Source: Paraburkholderia hospita | GTDB taxonomy: Bacteria; Pseudomonadota; Gammaproteobacteria; Burkholderiales; Burkholderiaceae | Direction: 5' to 3' | Length of the DNA: 64,000 nt | NCBI RefSeq assembly: GCF_002902965.1 | Contig: NZ_CP026106.1 | Coordinates: forward strand, 2,480,001 to 2,544,000 | Shown: positions 224 through 50,708 of the stretch, one piece after another | Position numbering within the stretch: position 1 is the stretch's first letter | How the letters are laid out: every line of letters begins with the position of its first letter | Notes under the pieces: model-generated | What the model saw: only the letters and a program-made list of their open reading frames with translations | What the model was told of the DNA's origin: nothing | The model's database searches: none | Position numbers and translations under genes: made by a program

Positions 224-289
224 CTGTCTGGACAACCTCGATGAAGCATGGCCGTAACGCCCGCCGCTGGCAGCGGGCGCAATTCACGG

Positions 290-2367: not shown

Positions 2368-2808
2368 ATGCGATATGCCTCCTACTCGCGGCGCGCGACA
2401 GCGCTGACGATCGATTCAATCTGGTGGACTGCCATCGTGCTGCTCGTCCCGCTCGGACCCTCGACAGAGGACATCCTGCTGGCACCCGAGTCCTACGTTG
2501 CGACCATCCTTTTCTGGCTAGCCATCGGCCAATGCCTTCCCATCCTGTTGACGGGCGTCATGTGGGCTGTATGGGGCACGTCACCCGGCAAACGCGCGTT
2601 GCGTCTTCGGATCGTGGATGCCGATACCGGACGCGCGATGACCGTGCGACAAGCGGGTCTGCGCACACTCGGATATCTCCTGACCTTCGCGACTTGCGGT
2701 GCCGGATTCCTGTGGGTGCTGTTTAACGACCGGAAGCAGACGTTACATGACCGGATAGCCAATACGACTGTGGTCGAGGATGAAATTCGCGAGCACGTCG
2801 GGACTTGA
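2368..2808 (+). CDS. RDD family membrane protein
   Basis: This 146-residue protein begins MRYASYSRRATALTIDSIWW, the characteristic RDD start with Arg in the first helix and Asp in the helix that follows (residues about 8-17). Three hydrophobic segments follow, around ALTIDSIWWTAIVLLVPLG, SYVATILFWLAIGQCLPILLTG and LGYLLTFATCGAGFLWVLF. The signature GTSPGKRALRLRIVDADTG lies between the second and third segments, and the protein ends with NDRKQTLHDRIANTTVV. These features are standard for RDD proteins of the inner membrane, whose roles are mostly undefined. It is transcribed divergently from ku. A longer frame begins at 2236, but homology starts at 2368. Confidence 0.85.
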   Translation: MRYASYSRRATALTIDSIWWTAIVLLVPLGPSTEDILLAPESYVATILFWLAIGQCLPILLTGVMWAVWGTSPGKRALRLRIVDADTGRAMTVRQAGLRTLGYLLTFATCGAGFLWVLFNDRKQTLHDRIANTTVVEDEIREHVGT

Positions 2809-3176
2809 GCCACCCGGAAGACGCGGCGCGATATTGCAGATGCGGGAGGCTTTTGCGTTGTCGCGCCGACGCTCTCAGAGCACAACTAGGTGGATCTACG
2901 TCCTGAAGTCGATTTCCCTTGCCGGGATAGGTAGTCGTTTTGCATCCGTTGCGCTATGCACGCCGTATACGAGGTCAGAACGATGCCCGCGACAAGGCCC
3001 CCAACGGCGTTCCCATGGCGCGGCCAGGCGGCGTTCAGTCACCTCCGGCATACGACGGGCATCGAAAGCGAAACGTATCGAGCGCTTGCACTTCGCCGCT
3101 ATGCAAGCATCCTGTTCAGCGGCACATTGAATCCAGCGACACGGAAATGTGCGCTGGCACGCCCAGGAGTCATGCT
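2809..3176. other. Gene-free stretch
   Basis: The 368 bases between the RDD gene and the small exported protein hold only short overlapping frames without family resemblance. The ribosome binding site of the downstream gene (AGGAG at 3163-3167) lies at the right end. I see no convincing promoter, terminator or repeat. Confidence 0.5.
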
Positions 3177-3461
3177 ATGAAACACGCAACGTGGAAAGTT
3201 CAGTTGGCGCAAGCTTTTGTCGCCGCGCTTTACGGATGCGCGGCAACGTTCGCGTACGCCGGAGGGAACGGCAACGGCGGAAACGGTAGCGGCGGTGCTC
3301 ACGGTGCGGCGACGGCAGGGATGACGTATCACAGTGAGCCCGTGTCCAGCCCGTGGAACCGGATACCCGGCGATATGTCCCGAAAGGCAACCGGGAACAC
3401 AACGGATATGCCCGGCATGACACCCGTTGAAGGTGTTGATAATGTAAAGACCAGTCAGTAG
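3177..3461 (+). CDS. Small exported Gly-rich protein of unknown function
   Basis: A 94-residue product with a signal peptide (basic start MKHATWK, hydrophobic core, probable cleavage after AYA near residue 28). The mature part opens with a Gly/Asn run (GGNGNGGNGSGG) and continues with a polar segment rich in Met, Ser, Pro and Thr. AGGAG sits 9 bases before ATG 3177, which fixes the start. It has no Cys beyond the one in the signal peptide and no recognisable domain. Small periplasmic proteins of this style are common and poorly known in Burkholderiales. Confidence 0.7.
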   Translation: MKHATWKVQLAQAFVAALYGCAATFAYAGGNGNGGNGSGGAHGAATAGMTYHSEPVSSPWNRIPGDMSRKATGNTTDMPGMTPVEGVDNVKTSQ

Positions 3462-3632
3462 TTGCAGTAGCGTCCGAGGCTGGCAGCGCATGCCCCGATC
3501 GAGCGAAACTGATTGTCCGGTCCACTCTCCCCGCAACAAGGGATGCCGTTTGTGTGGCGTGTGCGGTTCGAGGGCTACCGTCCAGAGACGACAGCCGCCA
3601 GTTAAAACTTCACACGCAATCCGGCACGCGGG

Positions 3633-4946: not shown

Positions 4947-6269
4947 TCAGGCGTCGAGCGACGCGAGATACGCCTTGCCTTTTTCCGCGTCGTACTGTCC
5001 TTCCCACTTCGCGATGACGAGCGGCGCCAGCGCGTTGCCCACGACATTCAACGCAGTGCGTCCCATGTCCATGATCCGGTCCACGCCCGCGATGAACGCG
5101 AGCCCTTCGAGCGGCAAGCCGGCGCTGGCGAGTGTCGTCAGCAGGATCACGAACATGAAGCCCGGCACACCAGCAGCGCCTTTCGACGTCACCACCATCG
5201 TCAGGATCAGGACGATCTGTTCCTGCAAGCCGAGATGCACGCCGTACAGTTGCGCGACGAACAACGTTCCAATGCCCAGATAGATGGATGCGCCATCGAG
5301 GTTAAAGGTGTAGCCCGTCGGTACGACGAAGGTGGTAATGCTCTTGGGCACGCCGAAGTCTTCCATCTTCTTCATCAACTGCGGCAGCACAGTGGCCGAA
5401 CTGCACGTCGAAAAGGCAATGATCAGTTCATCCTTGATGACCTTGAGCAGCGTGAAGATATTGAAGCCGAACAGGCGCGCGGTGACGCCGAGCACGAAGA
5501 CCGCGAACAGAATGATCGCGAGATACGTCACCGCGACCAGCTTGACCAGCGGCAGCAGCGATCCGAAACCGAAGTTCGCGACGGTCACCGCGATCAGCGC
5601 GCACACGCCGAACGGCGCGTAGCGCATCACCATGCCCGTGACCTTGAACATCGCGTCGCCGATGCCCTTCAGCGTGGCGAGCACGGGCTTTCTGTACTCC
5701 GCCGGCACGGACTGCAAGCCGAGCCCGAACAGCACCGAGAAGAAGATGACAGGCAACAGATCGCCTCGCCCCATCGACGCGACGACATTGTCGGGGATGA
5801 TATTCAGCAGCAAGGACATGAAGCCGTGATGGCCTTGCGTCTGCGTGGCTTGCTGGAGATGCGAGATGTCCGTGTGGCCGAGTTGCGACATGTCGGTGCC
5901 GACGCCCGGCTGCAACACATTGCCGAGCACGAGCCCCAGCACGATGGCGATCGTCGTGACGACCTCGAAATACACCAGCGTCTTCAGGCCGATGCGCCCA
6001 AGCGAGCGTCCATCTCCCACACCTGCAATGCCGGCCACCATACTGGTGAATACGATGGGCACGACGACCATCTTGATGAGCCGGATGAAAATGTCGCCGG
6101 CAGGCTGCAGAAAGCCTGTCACAACCGAATCACACATTTGAGGAAAGCGGTTCAGCACGACGCCGACTGCAATGCCGACGACGAGGCCGATCAGTATTTG
6201 CCAAGCCAGGCCGATGCGCGGCTTGCGCTCGATGAGTTCGGCAGGCGGTGTTTCGATCACGGATTCCAT
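4947..6269 (-). CDS. DAACS family dicarboxylate/amino acid:cation symporter
   Basis: A 440-residue inner-membrane transporter of the GltP/DctA family. The first helix (IGLAWQILIGLVVGIAVGVVL) and the conserved LIKMVVVPIVFTSMVAGIAG are followed by the Ser-rich hairpin (FSTCSSATVLPQL). TFVVPTGYTFNLDGASIY and GAAGVPGFMFVILLTTL are the substrate and cation signature segments. I chose ATG 6269, preceded by GGAG, rather than the upstream frame opening at 6407. It is the first gene of a probable two-gene unit with the aminotransferase-like gene. The acidic-substrate preference is a family property; the actual substrate is unknown. Confidence 0.9.
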   Translation of the reverse strand: MESVIETPPAELIERKPRIGLAWQILIGLVVGIAVGVVLNRFPQMCDSVVTGFLQPAGDIFIRLIKMVVVPIVFTSMVAGIAGVGDGRSLGRIGLKTLVYFEVVTTIAIVLGLVLGNVLQPGVGTDMSQLGHTDISHLQQATQTQGHHGFMSLLLNIIPDNVVASMGRGDLLPVIFFSVLFGLGLQSVPAEYRKPVLATLKGIGDAMFKVTGMVMRYAPFGVCALIAVTVANFGFGSLLPLVKLVAVTYLAIILFAVFVLGVTARLFGFNIFTLLKVIKDELIIAFSTCSSATVLPQLMKKMEDFGVPKSITTFVVPTGYTFNLDGASIYLGIGTLFVAQLYGVHLGLQEQIVLILTMVVTSKGAAGVPGFMFVILLTTLASAGLPLEGLAFIAGVDRIMDMGRTALNVVGNALAPLVIAKWEGQYDAEKGKAYLASLDA

Positions 6270-6408
6270 GCGTTCTCCAGACGGACCGATTGATATGGAT
6301 TGACGCGGGAGGCGGCGTGCCTTCTTTCGAGCGCGCTCGGTCGAGCCCGTCCCGCATGCGCTGTGTTTCAGCTCGATGTCGAAACCATAAGCATCCAGAA
6401 TAAACAAA

Positions 6409-6444
6409 AAAAGCGATTTTTTTCTATGCGAACATATCGCTTTT
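6409..6444. promoter_or_regulatory. Inverted repeat upstream of the LysR gene
   Basis: AAAAGCGAT (6409-6417) and ATCGCTTTT (6436-6444) form 9-base arms around an 18-base AT-rich spacer, in the divergent region between the symporter and LysR genes. This position suits a LysR operator or its own promoter control. A structural RNA hairpin is the alternative. Confidence 0.45.
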
Positions 6445-6464
6445 ATTCATTTAATGGCAACGCG

Positions 6465-7394
6465 ATGCTGACCTTCAAGCAGATGGAAGCGCTGTACTGG
6501 ATCGTGCAACTGGGATCGTTCGAGGCTGCGGCGACGCGTCTGAATACGACCCAGTCGGCGGTTTCCAAACGTGTGCAGGAGCTTGAGCGTGCTTTCGATC
6601 TCGTGGTGTTCGACCGCGCCCATCGCAGCGCGCGCCTGACCAAAAAGGGGGCTGAGTTTTTCGAGTACGCGAAGGAGTTGCTGGAGCGCCGCGATCAGAT
6701 CGTCGAGCGCGTCAGTTCGAAAGAGGCGCTCGTGAGACAGATACGCATCGGCGTCACGGAACTCACGGCGCTGACATGGCTGCCCCGCCTCGTCTCAGCG
6801 ATACAGGCGGAATATCCGAAAGTGAAGGTGGAAGCGGAAGTTGAACTGAATGCGACGTTGCGTGAGCGGCTCGCCAGCGACACCATCGATGTGATCATCG
6901 TGCCGCAGACCCAGAGCACGGAACCGTATGCGACCACGGCCGTTGGCCAGGTCGACAACGCGTGGATGTGTGCCGCGAGCCTCGCGCCGCGCAAGACGGC
7001 AATCCCGATCACGGAGATCGCGAAGTATCCTCTGATCCTGCAAGGCGGGTTGTCCGGCACCGGCTATGTGTATAGCCGCTTTTTGCAGGACCACGGCGTC
7101 AGCCTTCAAAAAGTGCTGGCGAGCAATAGCCTCATCGCACAAATCGGTCTGACGTTGTCGGGGCTCGGCGTCAGCTATCTGCCTAAAGCCTGCCTGCGAC
7201 ATATGCTGGAGCGGCGTGCGCTCGTGATCGTGCCGACAAGGCCCGCGCTGCCGCCCGTGAAATACATCGCGATGCATCGGGCAGACCAGTCGCATTCGTT
7301 GAGCGCGGCCATCGCGAGGCTGGCCGCGCAATCGTGCGATTTCAGTTCGAATCTGCTCGACCCAGGGATGCCGCAACCGGACCCTGCGCAATAG
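6465..7394 (+). CDS. LysR family transcriptional regulator
   Basis: A 309-residue LysR protein. The N-terminal winged helix (MEALYWIVQLGSFEAAATRL, then TTQSAVSKRVQELE) is followed by the effector domain from about residue 90 (IRIGVTELTALTWLPRLV; a hydrophobic pocket around GLSGTGYVYSRFLQ). ATG 6465 puts the HTH at its usual distance from the start; in-frame ATG 6426 would add 13 residues and also lacks a clear ribosome binding site. It is divergent from the symporter/aminotransferase pair, so it probably controls that pair. Confidence 0.88.
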   Translation: MLTFKQMEALYWIVQLGSFEAAATRLNTTQSAVSKRVQELERAFDLVVFDRAHRSARLTKKGAEFFEYAKELLERRDQIVERVSSKEALVRQIRIGVTELTALTWLPRLVSAIQAEYPKVKVEAEVELNATLRERLASDTIDVIIVPQTQSTEPYATTAVGQVDNAWMCAASLAPRKTAIPITEIAKYPLILQGGLSGTGYVYSRFLQDHGVSLQKVLASNSLIAQIGLTLSGLGVSYLPKACLRHMLERRALVIVPTRPALPPVKYIAMHRADQSHSLSAAIARLAAQSCDFSSNLLDPGMPQPDPAQ

Positions 7395-7873
7395 CGATCG
7401 CGTGAGATCAGGTGGTGTCTATTTGGCCCTTGGACTCGCCCGCGTCGATTCGCGCGCAAGCGTCGCGCGACCGTCGGCGCCATCCCGGGTTTTTTCTGGG
7501 TTCCCGCACCGATGCTGGGTGTCCTGACAACGCGTTCAGGCATCACACAGTACTGCATGCGGTGTCGTGACCGACGATGAATCGCGCGTACGCTCCAGCT
7601 ATGCGTGTTGCTTTCTATCGCACCTACGTCGATGCCGATGGGCATCGCCATGTGCATGGGGCGAATCTGCGTGTGCCCGCGAAGGTACGTCATCGCACTG
7701 GTGGAATCCCGCCAATCGCGTGTTGCGAGGACGTGGCACTGGCCGACATGTGGATTGCAACGGAAACTGAAACCAGCCCGTGCCTGTCGGCGGCTGAAGC
7801 GCCGGCGCGATGCGCGTTCGCCACTTCGTGGCGCCCCGCCTGAACCGCGTGTGCACGCGGTCGAGCGACAGTC
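7395..7873. other. Gene-free stretch
   Basis: Between the LysR gene and the small 45-residue gene I find only overlapping frames without family resemblance. There is no strong hairpin with a T run, so the LysR terminator is not obvious. Confidence 0.45.
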
Positions 7874-8011
7874 TTAGCGCGGCCGACGATGCGATTCGGC
7901 CATGATTTCGCACACTTCCAGATGGGTACGCCACGCGTCAGCGAAAAATTCGCGTACACGGGCAAGGAAACCGCCTTTCGTAGCCGTCGAGGTAGCAGTA
8001 GCGTAGCTCAT
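7874..8011 (-). CDS. Small 45-residue protein of unknown function
   Basis: The frame starts with ATG 8011 and ends at TAA 7874. The protein begins MSYATATSTATKGGFLARV, continues with the amphipathic part REFFADAWRTHLEVCEIM, and has a basic end (SHRRPR). GGAG lies 7 bases before the ATG, and a good promoter lies further upstream. The middle could form an amphipathic helix that touches a membrane or a partner. It is isolated between a LysR gene and the MHS transporter gene, and I cannot assign a family. The promoter, ribosome binding site and coding-like composition together make it more likely real than chance. Confidence 0.65.
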   Translation of the reverse strand: MSYATATSTATKGGFLARVREFFADAWRTHLEVCEIMAESHRRPR

Positions 8012-8052
8012 TGCAAACTCCATTCAGGGGTTATTGCCTAGGTATTAACCCT

Positions 8053-8080
8053 ATAGTACACCCTCTATGGTGCATTGCAA
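8053..8080 (-). promoter_or_regulatory. Putative sigma-70 promoter of the small gene
   Basis: Read on the minus strand, TTGCAA (-35, 8080-8075) and TACTAT (-10, 8058-8053) are separated by 16 bases, about 40 bases before the ATG of the small gene. The spacer and -10 carry related GGGT/ATAG elements (ATAGAGGGTG, then ACTATAGGGT) that could be a regulator site. Confidence 0.5.
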
Positions 8081-8184
8081 AATAAAAATCGCACGCGTTC
8101 TGGCACCTTTTTCAGCGATGTTGTGATGGGCGGAAACGCGGGAACCCGGATACCGCGCCGATAGCATTGCTGAATCGAAGCGCG

Positions 8185-9540
8185 TCAACCCTGGCCGCGC
8201 GCTTCTTCATCGATGACCGAACGATGCCGCGTTTCCGGCATCAGCCAATACGTGACGAGCGAAACCGCGGCGCACGCGCTCACGTAGTAGAAGAACCAAG
8301 ACTCGTGGCCCGCATGCTTGAACTTAAGCGCGAGATATTCGGTCGTGCCGCCCATCACCGACGACACCACCGCAAACGGCAGGCCGACGCCGAGCGCGCG
8401 CAGCTTCGCCGGGAACAGTTCCGACTTCACGAGCCAATGGATCGACGAGAAGCCGCTCAGGATGGCGAGCGCCGCGAGGTTCAGCGCGAAGGCGGCCCAC
8501 ACGCTGTGCGTGCTGCCGAGCGCGTGCATCAGCGGCACCGTGCAGAACGTGCCGCCGATGCCGAAGATCAGCATGACGGGCCGCCGCCCGACCACATCCG
8601 ACAGCAGTCCGTAGAGCGGCTGGAAGCACATGTAGATCACGAGCGCGACGGTCGCGATCAGCGTCGCGGTATCGCGGCTGAAGCCCGTCGTGTTGACCAT
8701 GTACTTCTGCAGATAGATCGTGAACGTATAGAACGCAACCGTGCCGCCGATGCTGATGCCGATCGTCCATAGCGTTTGCATGCGATGCCGGACGAGCAGC
8801 GCAAGCAGGCTGCCGCGCTCCGACTCGCGTGACGCCTGGCCGGCGGCGAGCGTATCGGCGCGCTCGAACGCGTCCGTCTCCGCGATGCCGCGCCTCAGAT
8901 ACAGCGCGAACACGGCGAGCGCGCCGCCGATCGCGAACGGTATGCGCCAGCCCCATTCTTCGAGCTGCGTCGGCGTCAGCGCGAAGCGCTGCAACACGAG
9001 CATCAGCGCGAGTGCAACGAGCTGTCCCATCACCACCGTCACCTGCACGAAGCCGACGAAGAAGCCGCGCCGTCCCGTCGGCGCCATTTCGCTCAGGTAC
9101 GTGGCGCTCGTGCCCGCCTCGCCGCCCATGCTGAAGCCTTGCAGCAGACGCGCGCAGACGAGCACTGCTGGCGCCGCGACGCCGATCGTCGCGTAAGTCG
9201 GCGTGAGCGCGATGATCAGCGAGCCGACGCTCATCATCGCCACCGACAAGCTCAACGCGACGCGCCGTCCGTGGCGATCCGCGAGCGCGCCGATCGCCCA
9301 GCTGCCGAGCGGTCTCACCACATAACCGATCGCGGCGACGGCAGCCGCGTTCAGCAGTTGCGCCGTCTGATTGCCGCCGGGGAAAAAGGCCTTGCTGAAA
9401 TAGATCGAGAAGATCGAATACGCGAGAAAGTCATACCACTCGATCACATTGCCCGCGCTGCCGCCGATGATCGAGCGCAACCGCTCGCGCCGCGCGGCGG
9501 GGGAAGCCTGAAGCGTCAGATCATGCGGCGTTGCGGCCAT
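8185..9540 (-). CDS. MFS transporter, metabolite:H+ symporter (MHS) type
   Basis: A 451-residue twelve-helix permease. The start IIGGSAGNVIEWYDFLAYS is the MHS hallmark also found in KgtP, ProP and ShiA. The first-loop signature GALADRHGRRVALSLSV and the helix-5 region QGFSMGGEAGTSATYLSEMA are present, and the second half repeats the loop as GLLSDVVGRRPVM. ATG 9540 has AGGAG before it. It lies 92 bases downstream of the MmgE/PrpD gene in the same direction and so probably imports the organic acid that the enzyme handles. Which acid is unknown. Confidence 0.9.
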   Translation of the reverse strand: MAATPHDLTLQASPAARRERLRSIIGGSAGNVIEWYDFLAYSIFSIYFSKAFFPGGNQTAQLLNAAAVAAIGYVVRPLGSWAIGALADRHGRRVALSLSVAMMSVGSLIIALTPTYATIGVAAPAVLVCARLLQGFSMGGEAGTSATYLSEMAPTGRRGFFVGFVQVTVVMGQLVALALMLVLQRFALTPTQLEEWGWRIPFAIGGALAVFALYLRRGIAETDAFERADTLAAGQASRESERGSLLALLVRHRMQTLWTIGISIGGTVAFYTFTIYLQKYMVNTTGFSRDTATLIATVALVIYMCFQPLYGLLSDVVGRRPVMLIFGIGGTFCTVPLMHALGSTHSVWAAFALNLAALAILSGFSSIHWLVKSELFPAKLRALGVGLPFAVVSSVMGGTTEYLALKFKHAGHESWFFYYVSACAAVSLVTYWLMPETRHRSVIDEEARGQG

Positions 9541-9632
9541 CCTGTGTCTCCTTGCGGCTATCGGGCCGCTTCGCTTTGTGCTTGCTGCGGTGCTGCTCGC
9601 GTAGTGCCTGCGGTACTGCGTGCGCCCTGGCG

Positions 9633-11048
9633 CTAGCCTCGCGTCGAGAGCAGGCGCACGAGTTCTGCCGCGTCCGTCTTGCTCTCGGCGTGCATGATCC
9701 ACTCGACGATGCGTTCGATCTGCTCACTGTCGACACGATGCCCGGCAAGCTTCGTCATCTTGTCGATGATTTCCGCTTCGCTCGCGAATGCATGCTCGCT
9801 GCCGCGTTGCGACTCGACAGTTTCTTCGAGCCGCGTGCCGTCGCGCAGCATCGCCTCGACGCGCACGGTGTGACGCGCGCCGCGGCCGCGTGCGGTGATG
9901 GCCGGGTCTTCGAGCACCTGCACGCGGTTCGCCAGCGCCATGCGCTGCGGGTCCGCCACCTTCGCTTCGCTGAACTGGTCGACGAACACATCGCCTTCGA
10001 GCAACAGCGTCGCGACGCAGTACGGCAGGTTGAGTTGCGCGGACGTCAGGCCCTGCGGCACATACGGCCAGCCGACATGATCGACCGTCACGCGCGAGCC
10101 GTGCACGACGATGCACTCGACGTCGTCCGCGCCGAACGGATGGCGCGCCTGCATGGCGCGGATCGCGTCGAGCGTCGTGTGGTTGCTGCCGACGCACGAG
10201 TAGAACTTCAGCGCAATGTTCATCGTCTCGAAGCGCTCGCCGAGTCCGTCGATCAGTTGCGTCAGGTCGTAGCGGTCTGTCGAGCGCGAGAACGTGCTGC
10301 AAAAACCGCCGTACGTGTTCTCGAACACATCGACGATGCCGGTGAAGCCGTTCTGCGCCAGCAGCGCGCCGTACAGCCCGCTTTGCGCGGCGCGCCCGGC
10401 ATGCATGCGCTTGACCATCGCGCCGAATTGCGCGGCCATCAGGCCCGCCGACTGCGTGCCACCGATACCGAGCGCATGCACAGTCTGCGCGGTGTCGAGG
10501 CGCAGCGCCGCCGCCGCGCCCGCCGCCGCGGAAAACACGCCGACCGTCGCGCCCGAATGCCAGCCCTGCGCAATATGTTCAGGGCCCATGCACATGCCGA
10601 CGCGCGGCCCCACTTCATAACCGGCCACACAGGCGCGCAGAAAATCGCGGCCGCTCATGCGCGCATCGGCGGGCAGCGTCTCGGCGACGGCGAGCACGGC
10701 GGGCAACGTGACGGCACCGACATGCAGCACGCCTGCGCGATGCACGTCGTCGAGTTCGAAGCTCTGGATCAGCGTGCCGTTCACGAGCGCGGCGTGCGGC
10801 GCGGACAGCTTCATCGGCGTGCCCCATACGGTGCACCCCGGGGTCGTGTCGACGCGCGCGAGCGTTTCGGCGAGGATGCGGCTCCATTCGAGCGCCGAGC
10901 CGAACAACGCGCAGCCGATGGAGTCGAGCAGCAACAACTTGATGCGCGCGATCACTTCGTGAGGAATCGCGTCGTAACGCAATTGCGCGACGAATGCCGC
11001 TACGCCGCCGGTGTAGGGGTTTGTGCCGATGTCGTGGTGCTGGTTCAT
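9633..11048 (-). CDS. MmgE/PrpD family protein
   Basis: The 471-residue product has the MmgE/PrpD layout: an all-helical N-terminal domain (LLLDSIGCALFG, then LVNGTLIQSFELDDVHRAGVLHVGA with the conserved Asp and His) and a smaller C-terminal domain. Further motifs are ARMSGRDFLRACVAGYEVGPRVG, WHSGATVGVFSAAAGAA, KFYSCVGSNHTTLDAI and AQLNLPYCVATLLLEGDV. Members include 2-methylcitrate dehydratase and cis-aconitate decarboxylase. This one stands outside any prp cluster and is paired with an MHS transporter, so its substrate is probably another polycarboxylic or hydroxy acid. The divergent LysR gene is the likely regulator. Confidence 0.87.
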   Translation of the reverse strand: MNQHHDIGTNPYTGGVAAFVAQLRYDAIPHEVIARIKLLLLDSIGCALFGSALEWSRILAETLARVDTTPGCTVWGTPMKLSAPHAALVNGTLIQSFELDDVHRAGVLHVGAVTLPAVLAVAETLPADARMSGRDFLRACVAGYEVGPRVGMCMGPEHIAQGWHSGATVGVFSAAAGAAAALRLDTAQTVHALGIGGTQSAGLMAAQFGAMVKRMHAGRAAQSGLYGALLAQNGFTGIVDVFENTYGGFCSTFSRSTDRYDLTQLIDGLGERFETMNIALKFYSCVGSNHTTLDAIRAMQARHPFGADDVECIVVHGSRVTVDHVGWPYVPQGLTSAQLNLPYCVATLLLEGDVFVDQFSEAKVADPQRMALANRVQVLEDPAITARGRGARHTVRVEAMLRDGTRLEETVESQRGSEHAFASEAEIIDKMTKLAGHRVDSEQIERIVEWIMHAESKTDAAELVRLLSTRG

Positions 11049-39981: not shown

Positions 39982-40941
39982 ATGAATCATGCATCGGAGG
40001 AAAGCCTCTCAGCCCACGAATCGACCGACGGCAACTATGCCTCCCTCGCGAGCGAGATTGTCGACATTTTCTACAAGATCTACGGTACCCATCCGGGCTT
40101 TCGCGTCAACCACGCGAAAGGCATCGTCGCGGAAGGCAGCTTTGTCGCCACGCCCGCTGCGGCGGCTTTGAGCCACGCCGCGCTCTTCGACGGCAGCAGC
40201 ATTCCCTTCACCGTGCGCTTTTCGAACGACGGTGGCTTTCCGGCCATCCCGGACGGTGCCCCAGGCAACATCAAGGGAATGGCCGTCAAGTTCCATCTGC
40301 CTGGCGGGGCCGAAGTCAATATCGTGATGCTGGCGGTGAAGACCTTCCCGATGGCGACCGGCGAGGGGTTTCGCGATCTGCTGGCGGCCATCAGCGAGAG
40401 TCCCGAAGATGCACCGAAGCCGACGAAGCTGGATGAATTCGCGGCCAGCCACCCGACCGTTCCTGCGGCCTTCAATACTGCGGGCACGCCGGACAGTTTT
40501 GCGCACGAGGAATATCGTGGCCTCAACGCCTTTATCTTCGTCGACAAGGCCGGGCGCAGGCAGGCGGTGCGCTACATCATGAAGCCGGAAGAACTCGTGT
40601 ATCTGACGGCTGACGAGGCCGCCAGACAACCGCTCGATTTTCTTGTCGACGACCTGCCGCAGCGCATTGCGAACAGGCCGGTCGAATTTCACTTCACCGC
40701 CCAGCTTGCCGAACCCGGCGACCAGACCAAAGATCCAAGCCAGCCCTGGCCCAATGATCGTCAGGTGGTGGACCTGGGCGTATTGACAGTTCACAAGGTC
40801 CGTGACGACAGCCGGGAAGTGCAGAAGGATTTGCTGTTCCTGCCGACCGACCTGATCGACGGAATTGAGCTCTCCGACGACAGGATGCCCGTGATCAGGT
40901 CCGAGGTATATGGGGTGGCGTTCGCGCGACGCAGCCGATGA
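39982..40941 (+). CDS. Small catalase-family heme peroxidase (SrpA-like)
   Basis: A 319-residue catalase-related protein, about 60% of the length of true clade 3 catalases and typical of the SrpA branch. The distal His is in FRVNHAKGIVAEGSF (His44). The core continues with VRFSNDGGFPAIPDGAPGNIKGMAVKFHL, then DEFAASHPTVPAAFNTAGTPDSF. The proximal heme ligand is Tyr310 in RSEVYGVAFARR. There is no signal peptide, so it is cytoplasmic. These proteins use peroxides, with the physiological substrate uncertain. It lies near a bufferin-like operon, consistent with a stress-linked neighbourhood. Confidence 0.92.
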   Translation: MNHASEESLSAHESTDGNYASLASEIVDIFYKIYGTHPGFRVNHAKGIVAEGSFVATPAAAALSHAALFDGSSIPFTVRFSNDGGFPAIPDGAPGNIKGMAVKFHLPGGAEVNIVMLAVKTFPMATGEGFRDLLAAISESPEDAPKPTKLDEFAASHPTVPAAFNTAGTPDSFAHEEYRGLNAFIFVDKAGRRQAVRYIMKPEELVYLTADEAARQPLDFLVDDLPQRIANRPVEFHFTAQLAEPGDQTKDPSQPWPNDRQVVDLGVLTVHKVRDDSREVQKDLLFLPTDLIDGIELSDDRMPVIRSEVYGVAFARRSR

Positions 40942-41713: not shown

Positions 41714-42046
41714 ATGAGCGATTACAAAACCACAACTCTCGTCGTTGGTGCATTCGCCACCGCCCTCGCTGCACTGACGGCTGCCTCCGCGAGCGCAGAA
41801 GAATTCACTGCCGCCCAGAAGAAGATTCAGGCGGAGCACACAGTGCTCGTCAAATCGGGCAAGGTCGAACCCTGTTTCGGCACGGCGCTCAAGGGGCAAA
41901 ACGATTGCTACGCGGGCGCAGGTACGACCTGTGCCGGGACGAGCACGACCGACAATCAAGGAAACGCATTCAAGCTGGTGCCCAAGGGAACCTGCACAAC
42001 CATGTCTACGCCGAACGGCCCTGGAAGCCTGTCTCCCAAGGCCTGA
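41714..42046 (+). CDS. DUF2282 family precursor peptide (bufferin BufA1 / GigA-like)
   Basis: A 110-residue exported precursor; GGAG precedes ATG 41714. The signal peptide runs to ASA at about residue 28. The DUF2282 core has four Cys in the family pattern: [24 protein letters not shown] and PKGTC (Cys54, 65, 73, 94). In bufferins such Cys are modified by the partner DUF692 oxygenase, and the product binds copper in the periplasm. It is the first gene of a tight operon with the DUF692, unknown, DUF2063 and DoxX genes, the layout of gig/bufferin loci. The His often found before the third Cys is Thr here. Confidence 0.85.
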
Positions 42047-42110: not shown

Positions 42111-43052
42111 ATGTCAGAGTCACTCTCGCCCAATGCTCGATGCCGCCTGCCGACGCGCACCGGGGTTGGGCTCAAGGCCGAACATTACAGAGCAGTCCTC
42201 GAATCGCGGCCGGATATCGGCTTTTTCGAGGTGCACGCGGAAAACTACATGGGTGCAGGTGGCCCGCCGCATCGATTCCTGTCGGCGATACGCGAGTCCT
42301 ACCCTCTGTCCATTCATGGCGTCGGGTTGTCCATAGGCGCGGACCGACCTCTGGACCGGGATCACCTGCTACGGCTGAAAAGACTCATCGCCCGATATCA
42401 GCCCGCGCTGTTTTCGGAGCACCTTGCCTGGTCCGGTCACGACTGCGGTTTTCTCAACGATCTGCTTCCCGTTCCCTACACTGCGCAAAGCCTGACTTGC
42501 ATCGTCGATCACGTAGACGAACTACAGGAAGTACTCGGGCGGCAGATCTTGCTTGAGAACCCATCGACCTATCTGGCGTTCGAAGAAAGTACGTACCCGG
42601 AGACCGGCTTCATTGCCGAAGTCGCGCGGCGAACGGGATGCGGTCTCCTTCTTGACGTCAACAACGTGTATCTCGCGTCGATCAATCAACAATGGGACCC
42701 GCTCACGTATATCGATGCGTACCCGCTCGCGGCCGTGCAGGAGATTCATCTCGCCGGCCACGCGCAGGAGGCGGACGAACGGCGTCGCCCGCTGCTCATC
42801 GATACGCACGACCGTCACATTGCACGCGTTGTATGGGACCTCTTCGCATACGCAATCGGCAAGACCGGTCCGATGCCAACGCTGATCGAATGGGACGCAA
42901 ACGTGCCCGACTGGCCAACCCTCGCAGCAGAAGCAGAGCTGTCCGACACGATTATCAAGGCCGCCACGCGCCCAGCAACGGTCGAAATGGCGACAGCGCT
43001 GCCCTCGCTCACTGTACGGCAGCGCAATTCAGCGGGAATACCAACGCTATGA
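42111..43052 (+). CDS. DUF692 multinuclear iron oxygenase (MNIO, BufB-like)
   Basis: A 313-residue TIM-barrel protein of the DUF692 family. The iron ligands are visible in order: FFEVHAENYM, IHGVGLSIG (His69), SEHLAWSGH (Glu103, His104), LENPSTY (Glu149), LDVNNVY (Asp182, Asn184), HLAGHA (His213, His217) and DTHDRH (Asp231, His233). MNIO enzymes oxidise Cys of ribosomal peptides with O2, here presumably the DUF2282 peptide just upstream. I chose ATG 42111. In-frame ATG 42054 would make it 8 bases from the precursor stop but adds a tail outside the family. The stop overlaps the next gene (ATGA). Confidence 0.9.
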   Translation: MSESLSPNARCRLPTRTGVGLKAEHYRAVLESRPDIGFFEVHAENYMGAGGPPHRFLSAIRESYPLSIHGVGLSIGADRPLDRDHLLRLKRLIARYQPALFSEHLAWSGHDCGFLNDLLPVPYTAQSLTCIVDHVDELQEVLGRQILLENPSTYLAFEESTYPETGFIAEVARRTGCGLLLDVNNVYLASINQQWDPLTYIDAYPLAAVQEIHLAGHAQEADERRRPLLIDTHDRHIARVVWDLFAYAIGKTGPMPTLIEWDANVPDWPTLAAEAELSDTIIKAATRPATVEMATALPSLTVRQRNSAGIPTL

Positions 43053-44026
43053 TCAAACGGCACATCATGGTCTATTACGCGTGGAGTCGGCCAGGCGAAA
43101 CGGGCGCGCCGCTTCAGGTGATAGAGGATCGATTTCCGACGCTCTTCGAAAGCCGCAGGATGGTCTTCCCGAGATTTCATGAACTCGCGGACCCGCATCA
43201 GTTCGACCAGAGTATCGCCGGCTTTCTCGATCACATCATGAAGCGCAATTTCACCGCTTTCGTCGATCTGGCGGCATCGCTAACAGGTCAACGCGTCGCG
43301 GAAATCGAGCGCGTCACGGACGACGGAAAAATCACGCCACTCAACGCACGTCTTCTCGCTGGAATCGACACGCTGATAGTCATCAGCTTCGATTCCCAGA
43401 GAACAGCCCAGACTGCGCAGAGCGACGAGATCGAAGCGCTCCGCACGTTCCTCGACCATCCGGATCATCTCGCCTTTGTTTGTCCGCACCACGACATCGG
43501 CGATGTCGCGCATCTTCCGGAAAGCGAGCAGCTGCAACGTCACATCGTCGAATTCCTGCACCATGGAGACACGACGATTCCGCCACGGCAACGGTTCGGA
43601 GAGTTCGCGCGCTCGCTTCTCGCTGGACTTGGTGTACCTGTGGAAAATCGCTTCGGGCTTCGACCGGCAGCCGAAGCGGATGGCACGCCAGCGCCGATCG
43701 AAGTCGATACCACGCTTGACCGCCTCGGCCTGCTTCAGAAAGTCAGCACTTTCAATCTGCATCCACATCTGCCGCAGCTCGAGCGCCTTGGCGAGGCGTT
43801 CGACAAACTCGATGTCCTCGCCCATCAGCGCATCGACACGAGCGCTCCACCGCACCCTTTCGCAAGTGACCGCCCAACTTTCGATGCACTCCTCCAATCA
43901 CGCCCAGACACGTTTGCCGGCACCCTTCTGGTGAGTGATACGACGCTTTGGAGTTCGACGGCGGGTGGTGTCGACAGTCTCCGCGAATTGTGGACGAATG
44001 TGGTTCAACGTTCGGCCCGGGCCTGA
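43049..44026 (+). CDS. Unrecognised 325-residue protein in the bufferin-like operon, possible GATase/ThuA-like fold
   Basis: The start overlaps the DUF692 stop (ATGA) and the DUF2063 start lies 8 bases after its end, so it is a full member of the operon. It is soluble, without a signal peptide, and rich in His and Asp. The N-terminal 100 residues are unique (MVYYAWSRPGETGAPLQVIE, then PTLFESRRMVFPRFHELADP). Residues 107-152 read as strand-helix-strand with DTLIVISFDS and FVCPHHDIGD. The end (FAGTLLVSDTTLWSSTAGG, DSLRELWTNVV) recalls the last strand and helix of ThuA/DUF4350-type GATase-like folds. Function unknown. gig/bufferin operons as I know them have no such gene. Confidence 0.8.
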   Translation: MIKRHIMVYYAWSRPGETGAPLQVIEDRFPTLFESRRMVFPRFHELADPHQFDQSIAGFLDHIMKRNFTAFVDLAASLTGQRVAEIERVTDDGKITPLNARLLAGIDTLIVISFDSQRTAQTAQSDEIEALRTFLDHPDHLAFVCPHHDIGDVAHLPESEQLQRHIVEFLHHGDTTIPPRQRFGEFARSLLAGLGVPVENRFGLRPAAEADGTPAPIEVDTTLDRLGLLQKVSTFNLHPHLPQLERLGEAFDKLDVLAHQRIDTSAPPHPFASDRPTFDALLQSRPDTFAGTLLVSDTTLWSSTAGGVDSLRELWTNVVQRSARA

Positions 44027-44033: not shown

Positions 44034-44900
44034 ATGGCCATGGTTCTTCTAAAACCACCTCCCGCGTCCGCCCGCATACCCCTGAATTCTCATTCCTTGT
44101 TCGAGCGGCAAAAGCACTTCGCTTCGGCATTGCTGTATCCGGCTATGCCTGTGCCTCCCGGCCTGGTCGGCCCCGATCGACAACCCAGCGAAAAGCGCTT
44201 CAATGTATATCGCAACAATGTTGTGGTCGGGCTCGTCGACGCATTAAAGGCTGCGTTTCCCGCTGTGCTTCGTATCGTCGGAGATGAGTTCTTTGCGGCG
44301 ATGGCCCGAATTTACGTCTCGCGCCAACCACCGGAATCCCCTGTCATGCTTGACTATGGCGGAACGTTTCCAGACTTCATCGAGGCGTTCCGACCGGCGA
44401 ACAGCATGCCATATCTGCATGATGTCGCTCGACTCGAGCGGGCGTGGGCCGAGGCGTATCACGCCGCAGAGGTCTCTCCCATAGATCACGCTGTTCTTGC
44501 CACGATCGATGCCGATAGCCTTCCGCATCTGCGCCTCACGCTGCATCCATCGGCACGGGTCGTTCGATCCTGCATCCCTGTCGTCCAGATATGGCAGATG
44601 AACATCGACAGAGGCAAGCCGACCGGGGTCGACATCACCATCGGCGGCGAAGATGCGCTCGTCCTGCGCCCACACGCCGAGGTCGAGGTTCGCAGACTGC
44701 CTGTCGGCGCGGCAGCTTTTATCCACGCCATTGCGGCCAACCACTCAATGAATGAAGCAACGACGCTCGCACTCGACGATCATGCCGATTTCGATCTGGC
44801 CGGTGCGCTGCGAGATCTGTTCATGATCGGTGCGATTGTCGGATTGAGCCCACGGGCCTCTGATTCCGGCCACCTGCGAGGTATCGATGAGTCAGCTTAG
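44034..44900 (+). CDS. DUF2063 family MNIO partner protein (BufC-like)
   Basis: A 288-residue protein. The DUF2063 N-terminal domain holds RFNVYRNNVVVGLVDALKAAFPAVLRIVGDEFFAAMARIYV, and FPDFIEAFRPANSMPYLHDVARLERAW follows; longer pieces are given here only as landmarks of 44200-44460. The C-terminal half is beta-rich (VVRSCIPVVQIWQMNIDR). In the known systems this protein sits beside the DUF692 enzyme and is needed for peptide modification, probably by binding the precursor. ATG 44034 has GAAGG before it. It overlaps the DoxX gene by 14 bases. Confidence 0.85.
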   Translation: MAMVLLKPPPASARIPLNSHSLFERQKHFASALLYPAMPVPPGLVGPDRQPSEKRFNVYRNNVVVGLVDALKAAFPAVLRIVGDEFFAAMARIYVSRQPPESPVMLDYGGTFPDFIEAFRPANSMPYLHDVARLERAWAEAYHAAEVSPIDHAVLATIDADSLPHLRLTLHPSARVVRSCIPVVQIWQMNIDRGKPTGVDITIGGEDALVLRPHAEVEVRRLPVGAAAFIHAIAANHSMNEATTLALDDHADFDLAGALRDLFMIGAIVGLSPRASDSGHLRGIDESA

Positions 44901-45393
44901 CGCACCAACGAAAGGCCGTCTCGCGCCGAGGGTCCGTAAGGCCGCAGAGCTGATTCAGAAGTTCGCCTGGATCGTTGCACCGCCCTTGCTGCGGATTGCT
45001 CTAGCCCTCCCTTTCTTTCGCTCAGGTCTCACCCGTTGGGACGGTGTGCTGTCCATTTCGCCCGCTACGCTCTTCCTGTTCGAAAACCAGTTCAAGGTGC
45101 ACATCCTGGACGGTGCATACCCATTTCCCGCCCCTGACGCAGTCGCGCTTATCGTTGCAATGGCAGAAGTCACGCTCCCGGTTCTGCTCGTATTGGGATT
45201 CGCAACCCGCTTTGCGGGGCTTGCGCTGCTTGTGATGACGGGCGTCATCCAGCTCGTATTCCCCGACGGCTGGGCAAATTTTCATCTCAATTGGGCGTCG
45301 CTCGCCGTGGGTATCATGGCCCTTGGACCAGGCCCACTGTCGCTGGATCATTTGTTAGTGCGCATCCTCAACCCGCCAGTCGCGGCTCGATGA
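44887..45393 (+). CDS. DoxX family membrane protein
   Basis: A 168-residue inner-membrane protein with four hydrophobic segments (VAPPLLRIALALPFFRSGL, then LIVAMAEVTLPVLLVLGFAT, LALLVMTGVIQLVF and LNWASLAVGIMALGPG). DoxX features are the RSGLTRWDG and ELTLPVLLVLGFATRFAG-like motifs. As the last gene of the bufferin-like operon it occupies the position of GigD. DoxX proteins are quinone-linked membrane partners of redox systems, and here it may supply electrons to the MNIO enzyme (inference). Confidence 0.88.
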   Translation: MSQLSAPTKGRLAPRVRKAAELIQKFAWIVAPPLLRIALALPFFRSGLTRWDGVLSISPATLFLFENQFKVHILDGAYPFPAPDAVALIVAMAEVTLPVLLVLGFATRFAGLALLVMTGVIQLVFPDGWANFHLNWASLAVGIMALGPGPLSLDHLLVRILNPPVAAR

Positions 45394-45482: not shown

Positions 45483-46415
45483 CTACCCTTTCAATACACG
45501 TCGTCGCCGTCCATGCTCTCGTGCAAACGCAGCCGGCGTGCAACCCGTATGACGATGAAAACGACGGGTGAAATGACTCTGGTCTGAAAAGCCCGTCATG
45601 AGTGCAATTTCCGACAGCGGAATGTCCGTCTCAAGTAGCAACGACTGTGCGCGACGAATCCGGCATTGCTCGACAAAGCCAATCGCGGTCATACCCGTGC
45701 TGCGCTTGAACAGCCGGGTGAAGTGGAAACGCCCCACGTTCACGATGCCCGCAAGTTCGTCGAGTCCGATCGACCTGTCGAGATTTTCCTCGATGTATTC
45801 GGTAACGCGCGCAACTTCCATTCTGGTCAACGCGGGATGTTCCCGTGGAATGACCGGTTCGAATGCGTTGTAGCTTCGAAGCAGATGCGCCGCCAGCGCA
45901 AAGGACACGTGATCGACTATCAGCGTTTGTGCGGGATGAGGCTTGCGGTCGAGTTCCCCGATGAGAACTCGCGCGATGTGTTCGATGACAGGGTCTCGCG
46001 TCTCGAACACATTTCTGATTTCTATCCGCGTCGTACTCTGGCGTCCAATCTGCTCGCCGGCAGATGCAACGAGCGCAGTGGGAATACGCAATCGCGCGGT
46101 CGCGGAAGCACTCCCCTCCCAAAGCGAATCGCACCCGGCCGGCATGAGCATCGAGACGCCGGAAGTAATCAGACATTCGTGAACGGCTCCATCGCGCCCC
46201 TGAACGAGACGCGCACTCCCCGAAGGGCAATAACAGATCAGATGATGATCGAGGGCGGGATACCGTTCGGAGATATTGTGGAGCGGAGCGTACATGTCCA
46301 CTGTCACTCCCGACCACTCCCGTTCACGAGTGGTTGCTGTGGGACGATGCGACAGCACGTGAACGATCTCATCGATCGTTACGGGGTTGTCGGCAGTTTG
46401 GTAAGTCGTTGACAT
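45483..46415 (-). CDS. AraC family transcriptional regulator
   Basis: A 310-residue protein. The N-terminal 190 residues are an effector/dimer domain with VDMYAPLHNISERYPALDHH and SGVSMLMPAG, weakly like the cupin-type AraC sensors. The C-terminal 100 residues have the two HTH motifs of AraC (IGLDELAGIVNVGRFHFTRLFKRSTG and IPLSEIALMTGFSDQSHFTRRFHRHTG; each is over a separate helix pair) and end in TPAAFAREH. ATG 46415 is chosen; 46463 is possible. It converges with the bufferin operon and is divergent from the lipoamide-dehydrogenase-like gene, so either could be its target. Confidence 0.9.
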   Translation of the reverse strand: MSTTYQTADNPVTIDEIVHVLSHRPTATTREREWSGVTVDMYAPLHNISERYPALDHHLICYCPSGSARLVQGRDGAVHECLITSGVSMLMPAGCDSLWEGSASATARLRIPTALVASAGEQIGRQSTTRIEIRNVFETRDPVIEHIARVLIGELDRKPHPAQTLIVDHVSFALAAHLLRSYNAFEPVIPREHPALTRMEVARVTEYIEENLDRSIGLDELAGIVNVGRFHFTRLFKRSTGMTAIGFVEQCRIRRAQSLLLETDIPLSEIALMTGFSDQSHFTRRFHRHTGCTPAAFAREHGRRRRVLKG

Positions 46416-46738
46416 GTCACAGTGCCCGGTGAGCCTGCTGTTAGCTGTGATCTGGCTCGGCAAAGAATGCTAACACGCCAATATTCCAGAATGGAAAAAC
46501 CAGTGGAGCCATAGGGCGAGTTATGTTTGTCGCTATCAATGTCTCGATGTTCGATATAACCGTGCACATTCCACTCGTCAAGCATCGACAAAAGTCAGCA
46601 CGAGTGTTCAATCCAGCTTTCGCCCGCCCTGATAGCCTGAAGCACCTCTGTATGTCGAGGCCATGCCGGACCTGTCCGAGGACGATTTCCCCATCCATTC
46701 GTTCATCCTCGCTGTTGTGAGTCAAAGGCGCAAAGCTG
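46416..46738. other. Gene-free divergent region
   Basis: The 323 bases between the AraC gene and the lipoamide-dehydrogenase-like gene should hold both promoters. No supported frame or clear repeat was found. Confidence 0.4.
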
Positions 46739-48139
46739 ATGGACCATTTCGATGTCGTCATCATCGGGTGCGGCGCGGGCGGCTATAACACTGCTATTCG
46801 AGCGGGCCAGTTGGGTTTGTCTGTCGCCTGTATCGAACGGGCATCGCGCCCTGGCGGAATGGGCATTCGGACCGGCTGCATTCCTTCCCGAGTCTTGTTA
46901 CGCAGTTCTGAAATATATGACCTGATGGACAAGGGGAGCTTCACCGCGCTAGGGATTGGCTGTGCACCCACGCTTGATCTCGCGCAGATGATGGCCCACA
47001 AAAAGGCAATCGTCGACAAGATGTCGACGCGTGTTCACAGCCTGCTGCACAAGCAAGGGGTAACGCTCATCCATGGACATGCGAAGCTGGCTGCGGCTGG
47101 GCAGGTCGAAATCCGAAATGCGGAGGGCGCACGGCGAACCGTACGCGGCGCATCCATCGTTATTGCAACAGGTTCCGAGCCCATTCCACTGCCGTTTGCC
47201 GCTTTCGATCATGTGAAGATTCTCGATTCCGACGACGCGCTATCGCTCGACCGTGTACCGCGGCATCTCGCCATTATTGGCGCGGGCGCCGTCGGCGTCG
47301 AAGTCGGCTCGATCTGGCGCCGCCTCGGCTCACGCGTGACGCTCATTGAACAGCGCGACCGCATATGCTGTTGGTGCGACCGCGACGTGACGGCTGCGCT
47401 GGAGCGCTCACTCAAGCAACAGGGCATCGCGATCAGGCTGTGCAGTGATGTGATCGGCGTCGACAAGCGTGCCAGCGGTGTTTCGATTCAATTGCGCACG
47501 GCGACATCCAGCACAATCACTACCGTCGATGCAGACGCCGTTCTGGTCGCCATTGGCCGGCGGCCATCGACGGGCGGGCTCAACCTTGCGGGCATCGGTG
47601 TACAAGCGGGTGCGCAAGGCGCATTACTTCAGCAAGCGTTTGCACAAAGAGGCCCGGCTATATGGGCCGTCGGCGATGCCGCGGTAGGCCCAATGCTGAT
47701 ATCGAAGGCGGAAGAGGAAGCAGTAGCCTGCGCTGAACGGATCGCTGGCCTGCCTGGGTTCGTCGATTATTCGTCGATTCCCTATGTCCTCTATACAAGG
47801 CCGGAAGTCGCGATGATCGGCAAAACGGTGGACGAGCTTGTGCGAGTGGGAGCTCCATATAAAGTCGGCTACTTTCCGCTCGCGACCAACGCGCGTGCCG
47901 CGATAGACGGAATCGCCGAGGGGTTCGTCAAGCTGCTCGTTGAAGCCCGAACGAATCGGATCGCGGGTGCTCATCTCATTGGTCCGGGCGCGGCCGATCT
48001 GATTTCACAAGTGGCAATTGCAATGGAAGCATCCATGCTGTGCGAAGACTTTGCGCACATCTGTCACCCTTTCCCCGCCTGGTCAGAGGCGCTGCGTCAG
48101 GCCGCGATGGCGGCAGGCGGATGGGCGACACACATCTAG
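46739..48139 (+). CDS. Dihydrolipoamide dehydrogenase-like flavoprotein without active-site Cys and His
   Basis: A 466-residue member of the class I pyridine nucleotide-disulfide reductases. The FAD motif GCGAGGYNTAIRAGQLG (residues 10-26) and the NAD motif IIGAGAVGVEVGSIWRRLG are intact, and VGDAA near residue 316 keeps the second FAD contact. The redox centre is not: the family GGTCLNVGCIPSK is GGMGIRTGCIPSR here, so the first Cys is Gly42 and only Cys47 remains. The C-terminal catalytic His of CHAHPTLSE is Phe445 (CHPFPAWSE). It cannot work as a normal Lpd. No E1 or E2 genes are near, and the AraC gene is divergent. It may be a monothiol or non-disulfide flavoprotein, or a decaying paralogue. 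Confidence 0.85.
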   Translation: MDHFDVVIIGCGAGGYNTAIRAGQLGLSVACIERASRPGGMGIRTGCIPSRVLLRSSEIYDLMDKGSFTALGIGCAPTLDLAQMMAHKKAIVDKMSTRVHSLLHKQGVTLIHGHAKLAAAGQVEIRNAEGARRTVRGASIVIATGSEPIPLPFAAFDHVKILDSDDALSLDRVPRHLAIIGAGAVGVEVGSIWRRLGSRVTLIEQRDRICCWCDRDVTAALERSLKQQGIAIRLCSDVIGVDKRASGVSIQLRTATSSTITTVDADAVLVAIGRRPSTGGLNLAGIGVQAGAQGALLQQAFAQRGPAIWAVGDAAVGPMLISKAEEEAVACAERIAGLPGFVDYSSIPYVLYTRPEVAMIGKTVDELVRVGAPYKVGYFPLATNARAAIDGIAEGFVKLLVEARTNRIAGAHLIGPGAADLISQVAIAMEASMLCEDFAHICHPFPAWSEALRQAAMAAGGWATHI

Positions 48140-49245: not shown

Positions 49246-50019
49246 TCAGGATCCGCCGAACCAGTTGTAGCCCTGGTTTTCCCAGTAGCCGCCGGGAAAT
49301 TCGTTCGTCACCGTAATGGCGACAATATGTTTCGGGTTCTTGTAGCCGAGCTTGGTGGGGATGCGCAGCTTCATTGGAAAGCCGTATTTCGCAGGCAGAA
49401 CGTTGCCGTCATAGGTCAGCGTCAGCAGCGTCTGCGGATGCAGCGCCGTTGGCATGTCGACGCTCGTCCAATAGTTGTCGGCGCAATGCAGCGCGACGTA
49501 TTTCGCCGTGGTATCCGCGCCGGCCAGCAACAGAAAATCCGAGAAGCGCACGCCGCCCCACTTGCCGATCGCGCTCCAGCCTTCGATACAGATATGCCGC
49601 GTCACCTGGCTGCGTTGCGGCAGTGCGCTCAGCTCGCCAAGCGTCCACACGCGCCGGCCTTTGACGAGACCTGTGAGTTCGAGCCGCCACGTCTGTGCAT
49701 CGACCTCCGGTACCTGATCGATGTCATAGAACGCGTTGAACGGAAATGGGCGCGTAATCATCGAGTCCGGATACGTCGGCGCGAGTTCGCGTCGATCGAA
49801 GAGTAGCGCCTGCGCGTCGTCGTTAAACGAGGACATCGTGCGTAGCAGGTTGTTCACCGACCTGTCGTTCGTCAGATCGCAACCCGACAATAGCGCGAGG
49901 CCGCCCAGCGTCAGGATTCTCTTGCCAAAGAGACGCCGCGAAGACGAACCCAGTTCCTTCTGCGCGTCCTTGATGATGGATGCGGCGTCGAGCGTCCGCA
50001 CGTCTTTATCTGAATCCAT
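49246..50019 (-). CDS. Periplasmic molybdopterin-dependent reductase (MsrP/YedY-like), Tat lipoprotein
   Basis: A 257-residue sulfite-oxidase-fold protein. A twin-arginine signal (SSRRLFGKRILTLGG) ends in a lipobox-like LLSGC (Cys47), suggesting Tat export and lipid anchoring. The molybdenum ligand is Cys144 in TRHICIEGWSAIG. Other family segments are LELTGLVKGRRVWTLGELSALP, KYVALHCADNYWTSVDM, AKYGFPMKLRIPTKLGYKNPK and PGGYWENQGYNWFGG. YedY-type enzymes reduce oxidised Met or other small S/N-oxides with a membrane cytochrome partner. The partner cytochrome b gene lies 2 bases upstream. Confidence 0.9.
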   Translation of the reverse strand: MDSDKDVRTLDAASIIKDAQKELGSSSRRLFGKRILTLGGLALLSGCDLTNDRSVNNLLRTMSSFNDDAQALLFDRRELAPTYPDSMITRPFPFNAFYDIDQVPEVDAQTWRLELTGLVKGRRVWTLGELSALPQRSQVTRHICIEGWSAIGKWGGVRFSDFLLLAGADTTAKYVALHCADNYWTSVDMPTALHPQTLLTLTYDGNVLPAKYGFPMKLRIPTKLGYKNPKHIVAITVTNEFPGGYWENQGYNWFGGS

Positions 50020-50021
50020 GG

Positions 50022-50615
50022 TTAGCGGCCCCGGATCATGGTAAGCAGCGATCGCGGCACGAGCGCAACCATGGCGACATGGATCGCGAAGAAACCAACG
50101 AGCACGCTCATCGCAACGAAATGGACGATGCGTGCGTTATCGAAGCCACCCATCAGCGTCCGCAGAACCGGGAACTGCACCGGCTTCCAGATCGTCAGGC
50201 CAGACACTATCACCAGCGCAATGTCGACGATGACGACGAGATACGCCAGCTTCTGTACAGCGTTGTACGCGCCAAGATCGCTGTGACTGAGCTTGCCGCG
50301 CAGCGCAGCAACAAGGTCGGTCGCAATCGCGCGAAAGGTGATGGGGAAAATGGTTCTGCGCAGTCGCCCGGTGAAGACGCCCAACGCCAGGTACGCGACG
50401 AAGTTGGCGACCAATACCCACATGATCGCGAAGTGCCAGAGCAGTGCGCCGCCCAGCCAGCCGCCGAGCGTGATAGCCGCCGGGAAACGTATCGTCCCGA
50501 AGATAGGAGACGCTTCATACACCTCCCAGCCGCTCATACACATAAGGATCACCGCTGCTGCGTTGATCCAGTGGAAAGCGCGGACCCATACGGGATGAAT
50601 CGTGGCGTGATTCAA
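50022..50615 (-). CDS. Cytochrome b561-type membrane subunit, partner of the molybdenum reductase
   Basis: From TTG 50615 (GAGG upstream) the protein is 197 residues. The frame extends to TTG 50708 but the family start (NHATIHPVWVRAFHWINAAAV) begins here. Heme His candidates are in HPVWVRAFHW, LLWHFAIMWVLV, IVHFVAMSVLV and FFAIHVAMVA across four membrane segments. It resembles the b-type cytochrome of Ni/Fe hydrogenases and of molybdenum reductases, which pass electrons from quinol to the periplasmic enzyme. It is immediately upstream of the reductase gene. Confidence 0.87.
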   Translation of the reverse strand: MNHATIHPVWVRAFHWINAAAVILMCMSGWEVYEASPIFGTIRFPAAITLGGWLGGALLWHFAIMWVLVANFVAYLALGVFTGRLRRTIFPITFRAIATDLVAALRGKLSHSDLGAYNAVQKLAYLVVIVDIALVIVSGLTIWKPVQFPVLRTLMGGFDNARIVHFVAMSVLVGFFAIHVAMVALVPRSLLTMIRGR

Positions 50616-50708
50616 GAAAACCTCGTTGTCTACGGTATGGAAAGCACGTTGCGCGATAGTCTGCGAGAGCGCCGATAGAGCGCGCGTCGTCCGTGCGCCA
50701 TGGTTCAA

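Follow-up and report, generated by a model that had tools for sequence, protein, structure and literature searches.

What does an additional protein without a family do in the middle of an operon whose other genes all belong to a known system for a copper-buffering peptide? The question is raised by a stretch of 64,000 nucleotides from the soil bacterium Paraburkholderia hospita (NZ_CP026106.1, positions 2,480,001 to 2,544,000; hereafter the window), in which a protein that we call X is encoded inside a bufferin-1 (gig) operon. The preliminary description of this DNA had noted X as an extra member of a bufferin/gig-like operon, and hidden Markov model (HMM) matches agree: the DUF2282 precursor (BufA), the bufferin-type MNIO (BufB), the DUF2063 partner (BufC) and the DoxX protein (BufD) are all there, making the operon complete, and X belongs to no family. 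The four core genes stand in the order usual for bufferin-1/gig operons; what differs is the insertion of X and the kind of BufA, which comes from a sub-lineage whose members have more residues ahead of the first Cys and an aromatic one following the first central Cys. Our answer, to which we attach a probability of roughly 0.42, is that X is an accessory enzyme of iron-dependent oxidases, recruited once into the bufferin-1 operon. We see it as a helper of oxidising enzymes that was probably borrowed, not as a tool solely for the bufferin peptide.

As a class, X is not new but an already noticed component. The adjamnio-VI proteins in print, with which we match X by operon position and not by sequence, occupy the same place in buf1 operons, and the part of the article considered here suggests an additional modification for them (Antoine et al., 2025; PMC12452194). 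That part mentions neither a fold, nor kin outside bufferin operons, nor carriers that lack an MNIO. At the level of titles and abstract openings, we found no literature tying the X protein to DyP-type peroxidases or to the glutamine amidotransferase (GATase) fold; searches combining a DyP-type peroxidase operon with ThuA, or multinuclear non-haem iron with glutamine amidotransferase-like proteins, likewise returned nothing. The new points are the fold of X, its conserved site that is not that of a glutaminase, its single recruitment, its presence in genomes without MNIO and its link to a DyP cassette.

Predicted fold and conserved residues of X

Profile searches say little about X. Pfam (E up to 10) and NCBIfam (E up to 1) returned no family for it. 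Among 31 members of the X family Pfam gave four families, one member each, with a best E of 0.031, and 16 diverse members matched no Pfam family and a single NCBIfam one (an aminotransferase model, one member, E 0.012). The sole hint of the ThuA/GATase fold class among the 31 members was DUF4350, which matched one of them at E 0.093. A PDB sequence search with the X family reached E 0.11 at best, and Pfam found no DUF2063 domain in X, that domain being supplied by BufC.

Structure prediction is more informative. The AlphaFold model of X (predicted local distance difference test score, pLDDT, 91.1) has a class I GATase (GATase1)/ThuA-like fold. The best structural match is the N-terminal domain of IFT52, and the likeness, weaker in a second search, bears out the ThuA/GATase resemblance proposed in the preliminary description. 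X shares this fold with ThuA-like proteins, IFT52 and GATase1 at only 3-14% identity across the fold-match rows. The strand-helix-strand core predicted at residues 107-152 is recovered as a strand at 108-112, a helix at 125-135 and a strand at 141-145, and the assumed lack of a signal peptide would fit a model in which residues 6-13 form the first core strand.

The fold does not make X a glutaminase. The usual glutaminase motif is His-Pro-Glu; X has H269-P270-F271 and thus no Glu at the triad position. The Cys is kept as an invariant C145 in the closer branch (31 rows) and replaced by Gly or Ala in the branch associated with DyP-type peroxidases. We reject the class I glutaminase assignment because the Cys-His-Glu triad is not conserved, even though a GATase1-like fold is found; membership of the Pfam ThuA-like family was also set aside, neither X nor the 16 diverse members giving a profile match over the cut-off. 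Across the X family, several His and Asp residues never vary; in the alignment and the model they lie at strand ends and in nearby loops. Such a set would be expected of an active or metal site sooner than of a binding module, and X is probably a cytosolic, putatively metal-dependent enzyme.

Distribution and history of X in the bufferin-1 operon

The frame encoding X is not a chance one. Among 7999 candidates scored, 1753 are homologues at E ≤ 0.001, and in 28 of the 38 named genome loci (one scan) X lies inside the buf operon in the order BufA-BufB-X-BufC, so that close homologues are found mainly with DUF692 and DUF2063 genes and not away from them. BufD is present as well, except in L013, where the stretch ends. 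These operons occur in Burkholderiaceae, Rhodanobacteraceae (Dyella, Luteibacter) and Rhizobiaceae. X stands beside the operon in two loci, directly after BufD in L025 and, in L033, separated from BufABCD by a molybdopterin oxidoreductase gene and followed by FdhD and MoeA. Eight loci have no buf gene within the stretch examined, the flanks being short in four of them (L022, L023, L026 and L035). Many of the loci from the genome surveys (G numbers) are the same contigs as named loci (for example, L060 is L015 and L109 is L133), and the rows therefore overstate independence.

Within the genus of the window, 144 genomes yielded X in 19 cases and DUF2282 in 103; 18 of the 19 X genes lie in a buf operon, and operons with DUF2282, MNIO and DUF2063 but no X recur. 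The window's own genome has five DUF2282 matches, five MNIO matches and a single X. X was found in 16 of 398 genomes of the family, and in a phylum-wide sample of 398 genomes in two only, the window's own and G425. The X family is patchy, given so few carriers in the phylum-wide sample and among the relatives of G425, 150 of which were searched for the DyP-type X with G425 itself as the only carrier.

Trees were built without identical sequences, one 49-residue fragment and copies from the window's own genome. When 46 X proteins were placed in a tree, 35 copies from operons grouped with a single stand-alone copy (95/83), and the remaining stand-alone and near-operon copies fell outside; a fork inside the group is left open and the branch of L045 is very long. 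Among 60 BufB proteins, the 35 rows from X operons form one clade of the tree (98/94); L104 and L105, two rows classed as lacking X, correspond to the L025 and L033 operons, which have X close by. A further tree, limited to 36 selected X proteins, splits off the DyP branch at 100/100 and supports the operon group weakly (80/75), with the stand-alone L015 and L109 inside it. Since operon X and operon BufB each form about one clade, recruitment happened about once: there was essentially a single entry of X into the bufferin-1 operon, after which it was inherited with BufA, BufB and BufC. Pairwise distances over 27 operons correlate at 0.79 for X and BufB, 0.90 for X and BufC, 0.75 for X and BufD, and 0.83 for BufB and BufC.

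X without a bufferin maturase

X is not bufferin-specific, because complete genomes without MNIO carry it and because a distant branch of the family adjoins a DyP-type peroxidase. Two genomes listed as 100% complete, Paraburkholderia monticola (G489, the contig of L015) and G425, have X and no MNIO or DUF2282 match; the same holds for G561 and G563, for which no completeness is given. G560 has a DUF2282 match and no MNIO match, and Caballeronia sp. SBC1 (G779, a plasmid contig of a genome listed as 100% complete) has X and no MNIO match. The family alignment has 49 invariant sites, which L024 (49/49) and L045 (the X of G425) helped to define; L109 (from G779) and L026 keep 49 of them and L015 keeps 48. 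Between L109 and its operon relative L004, the nonsynonymous and synonymous distances (dN 0.043, dS 0.39) fit purifying selection. Downstream of the stand-alone X of a Bradyrhizobium locus (L024), a dense repeat array beside a frame whose translation looks Cas2-like by eye (7431-10618) resembles a CRISPR locus.

The distant branch is best seen in the Brevundimonas-like genome G425, whose X (L045) is 38% identical to that of the window and has its nearest homologue, among the matches listed, in Brevundimonas. Here X lies in the middle between a 199-residue protein and a DyP-type peroxidase (144-3126, minus strand). Streptomyces plasmids repeat the order small protein-X-DyP (L127 at 6404-9350, L135, L136), and Nostoc plasmids have small protein-DyP-X (L128 and L129, both at 5045-8008, and L137; L128 and L137 are one strain), giving a DyP-X neighbourhood in seven loci from three phyla. 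Both DyP proteins scanned (L045, L128) have the N-terminal DyP domain over the cut-off; the C-terminal domain is just under it in L045 and not listed in L128. The small protein (about 180 residues) has no Pfam match and is 59-63% identical to that of L045 in the other cassettes; its predicted model had a pLDDT of 47 and was not used. In the plasmid collection, the eight records with a small protein at at least 60% identity are the same eight that have a DyP-type X (57-67%), while nine more small-protein matches (24-31%) come from records without an X match. An intermediate X (45%) is found in Rhizobium leguminosarum pSK02, after a gene with tyrosine-decarboxylase-type domains.

The precursor variant and a natural deletion of X

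A competing explanation, which we regard as rather unlikely, is that X is a tailoring enzyme that modifies one bufferin variant a second time, for instance at the aromatic residue after the first central Cys. BufA of the window has the four Cys conserved in bufferin-1 precursors and a Tyr directly after the first central one, and its N-terminus resembles a signal peptide by eye. Further hallmarks of bufferin-1 are a 5-thiooxazole on the central Cys and copper binding. Tyr occupies this position in 41 of 41 BufA rows from X operons (at least eight being second copies of one contig) and also in both operons with X nearby, against none of 36 rows without X (K in 16, A in 14, a gap in 6). The pattern NDCYAG was found in 14 of the 398 family genomes, every one of them a carrier of X; of the 16 carriers, G489 and G779 lack it. 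This explanation also agrees with the modification suggested for adjamnio-VI and with the distance correlation between X and BufC. Related MNIO-PME1 systems form 5-thiooxazole, with the counterparts of BufB and BufC as two partners of one complex, according to the part of the source considered here (PMC13097082).

Against it stands, first, the retention of X in G489, G425, G561 and G563, with neither MNIO nor DUF2282 match, and in G779 without MNIO. Second, the Rhizobium sp. T1473 and T136 plasmids carry a full X and have Phe instead of Tyr, so modification of the Tyr, once considered as the main reading, was downgraded. Third, R. leguminosarum pPR1 (L141, 4001-4280) lacks X residues ~58-293, yet its BufA retains NDCYAG and none of the four buf frames is interrupted; the buf core can therefore do without X for some time at least, unless the deletion is an assembly error. 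Finally, as BufA, BufB and X descend together, the correlation of precursor and X may reflect ancestry only. The aromatic variant could thus mean either that X acts on it or that precursor and X share descent. Broken or partial X copies were also seen in L138 and L142.

The preliminary description had read the operon as a bufferin variant with an added step, X being a dedicated third modification, partner-binding or proteolysis factor. Part of this stands: X is real, conserved, co-inherited and ThuA/GATase-like. The dedication to bufferin is what has been weakened, by the genomes without MNIO, the DyP neighbours and the pPR1 deletion; a role as third bufferin modification is possible but weakened.

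Operon layout and neighbouring genes

Table 1. Genes of the bufferin-1 operon and its convergent neighbour in the window.
Feature	Position	Strand	Assignment
BufA	41714..42046	+	DUF2282 bufferin-1 precursor; Pfam PF10048, 77 bits (cut-off 22.4)
BufB	42111..43052	+	MNIO bufferin maturase; PF05114, 345 bits; NF050167 'MNIO family bufferin maturase', 381 bits (cut-off 310)
X	43049..44026	+	325 residues, ATG start; GATase1/ThuA-fold protein (predicted), adjamnio-VI-like; no Pfam or NCBIfam family
BufC	44034..44900	+	DUF2063 (PME-type 1) partner protein; Pfam PF09836, 89.6 bits
BufD	44887..45393	+	DoxX family membrane protein; Pfam PF07681, 49.6 bits
AraC-family regulator	45483..46463	-	convergent with the operon; HTH_18, 87 bits

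The ATGA coupling of X to the BufB gene is present as described, the BufB stop TGA (43050-43052) sharing bases with the X start. It is not general, since the 4-base overlap occurs in 11 of the 28 X operons. An AraC-family match lies near 21 of the 28 (not necessarily orthologues). In P. monticola the stand-alone X is directly followed by an AraC regulator with 58% identity to that of the window.

These regulators bring in another alternative, in our view unlikely: X would be an independent stress enzyme, merely co-regulated with bufferin through a shared AraC or extracytoplasmic function (ECF) sigma factor and without a role in maturation. The P. monticola copy beside its regulator, the stand-alone X of Caballeronia sp. 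SBC1 and the molybdenum-enzyme, FdhD and MoeA genes around X in L033 favour it. The insertion between BufB and BufC, however, is kept in the 28 loci across three families, although order alone is no proof of physical partnership, and the X and BufB trees each give one operon group. A third possibility, very improbable, is that X binds or chaperones a BufB-BufC-BufA complex without catalysing anything, by analogy with the use of the fold in IFT52. IFT52 is the top structural match and the family does not conserve a Cys where glutaminases have theirs, but the invariant His and Asp residues and the recurrence of X-less operons in the same genus speak against it.

Several other genes were seen around X. 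At their end the annotated Rhizobium operons L131 and L140 have, instead of AraC, genes for a sigma factor and a DUF1109 protein, and they have a small annotated antibiotic biosynthesis monooxygenase (ABM) gene before BufA (5173-5481 and 3185-3493, respectively; ABM domain in L131). In the window, a catalase-family protein is encoded upstream of the operon (39982-40941) and a pyridine-nucleotide disulphide oxidoreductase downstream (46739-48139), with a relative of the latter near eight of the 28 named X operons. A molybdopterin-binding oxidoreductase adjoins a cytochrome b561 at 49246-50708 (minus strand); L033 also has molybdenum-enzyme genes close to X, and L015 a gene for a 4Fe-4S protein.

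A possible role for X

We return to X as an accessory enzyme of iron-dependent oxidases. In this view X is one of a hitherto unnamed group of cytosolic class I GATase/ThuA-fold proteins that have lost the glutaminase triad and kept the invariant His/Asp set, probably as a metal-dependent, hydrolase-type active site. Gene neighbourhoods show the family accompanying iron-dependent oxidising enzymes: one branch adjoins the haem DyP-type peroxidase, the other the MNIO bufferin maturase, essentially a single recruitment having brought X into one bufferin lineage. X most likely acts on something that the oxidising enzyme makes or needs, such as a cofactor, a metal, a side product of the oxidation or the precursor in its oxidised form. 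It would aid maturation when copper or oxidative stress prevails, and would not be a dedicated and obligatory third peptide modification. A broader version, which we find somewhat doubtful, is that X heads an undescribed family of GATase-fold metalloenzymes servicing unrelated iron-dependent oxidases (DyP cassettes in three phyla, MNIO maturases) by way of a common oxidised product or cofactor.

The case of X tempers the assumption that an extra gene in an operon for a ribosomally synthesised and post-translationally modified peptide (RiPP) encodes a tailoring enzyme of that peptide. The carriers without MNIO, the natural deletion and the paralogous bufferin genes within one genome make the question directly testable, and the wider family suggests the DyP-peroxidase cassettes as a simpler setting in which to find the activity. 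If the broader version is true, one accessory chemistry would connect peroxidase and RiPP-maturation biology.
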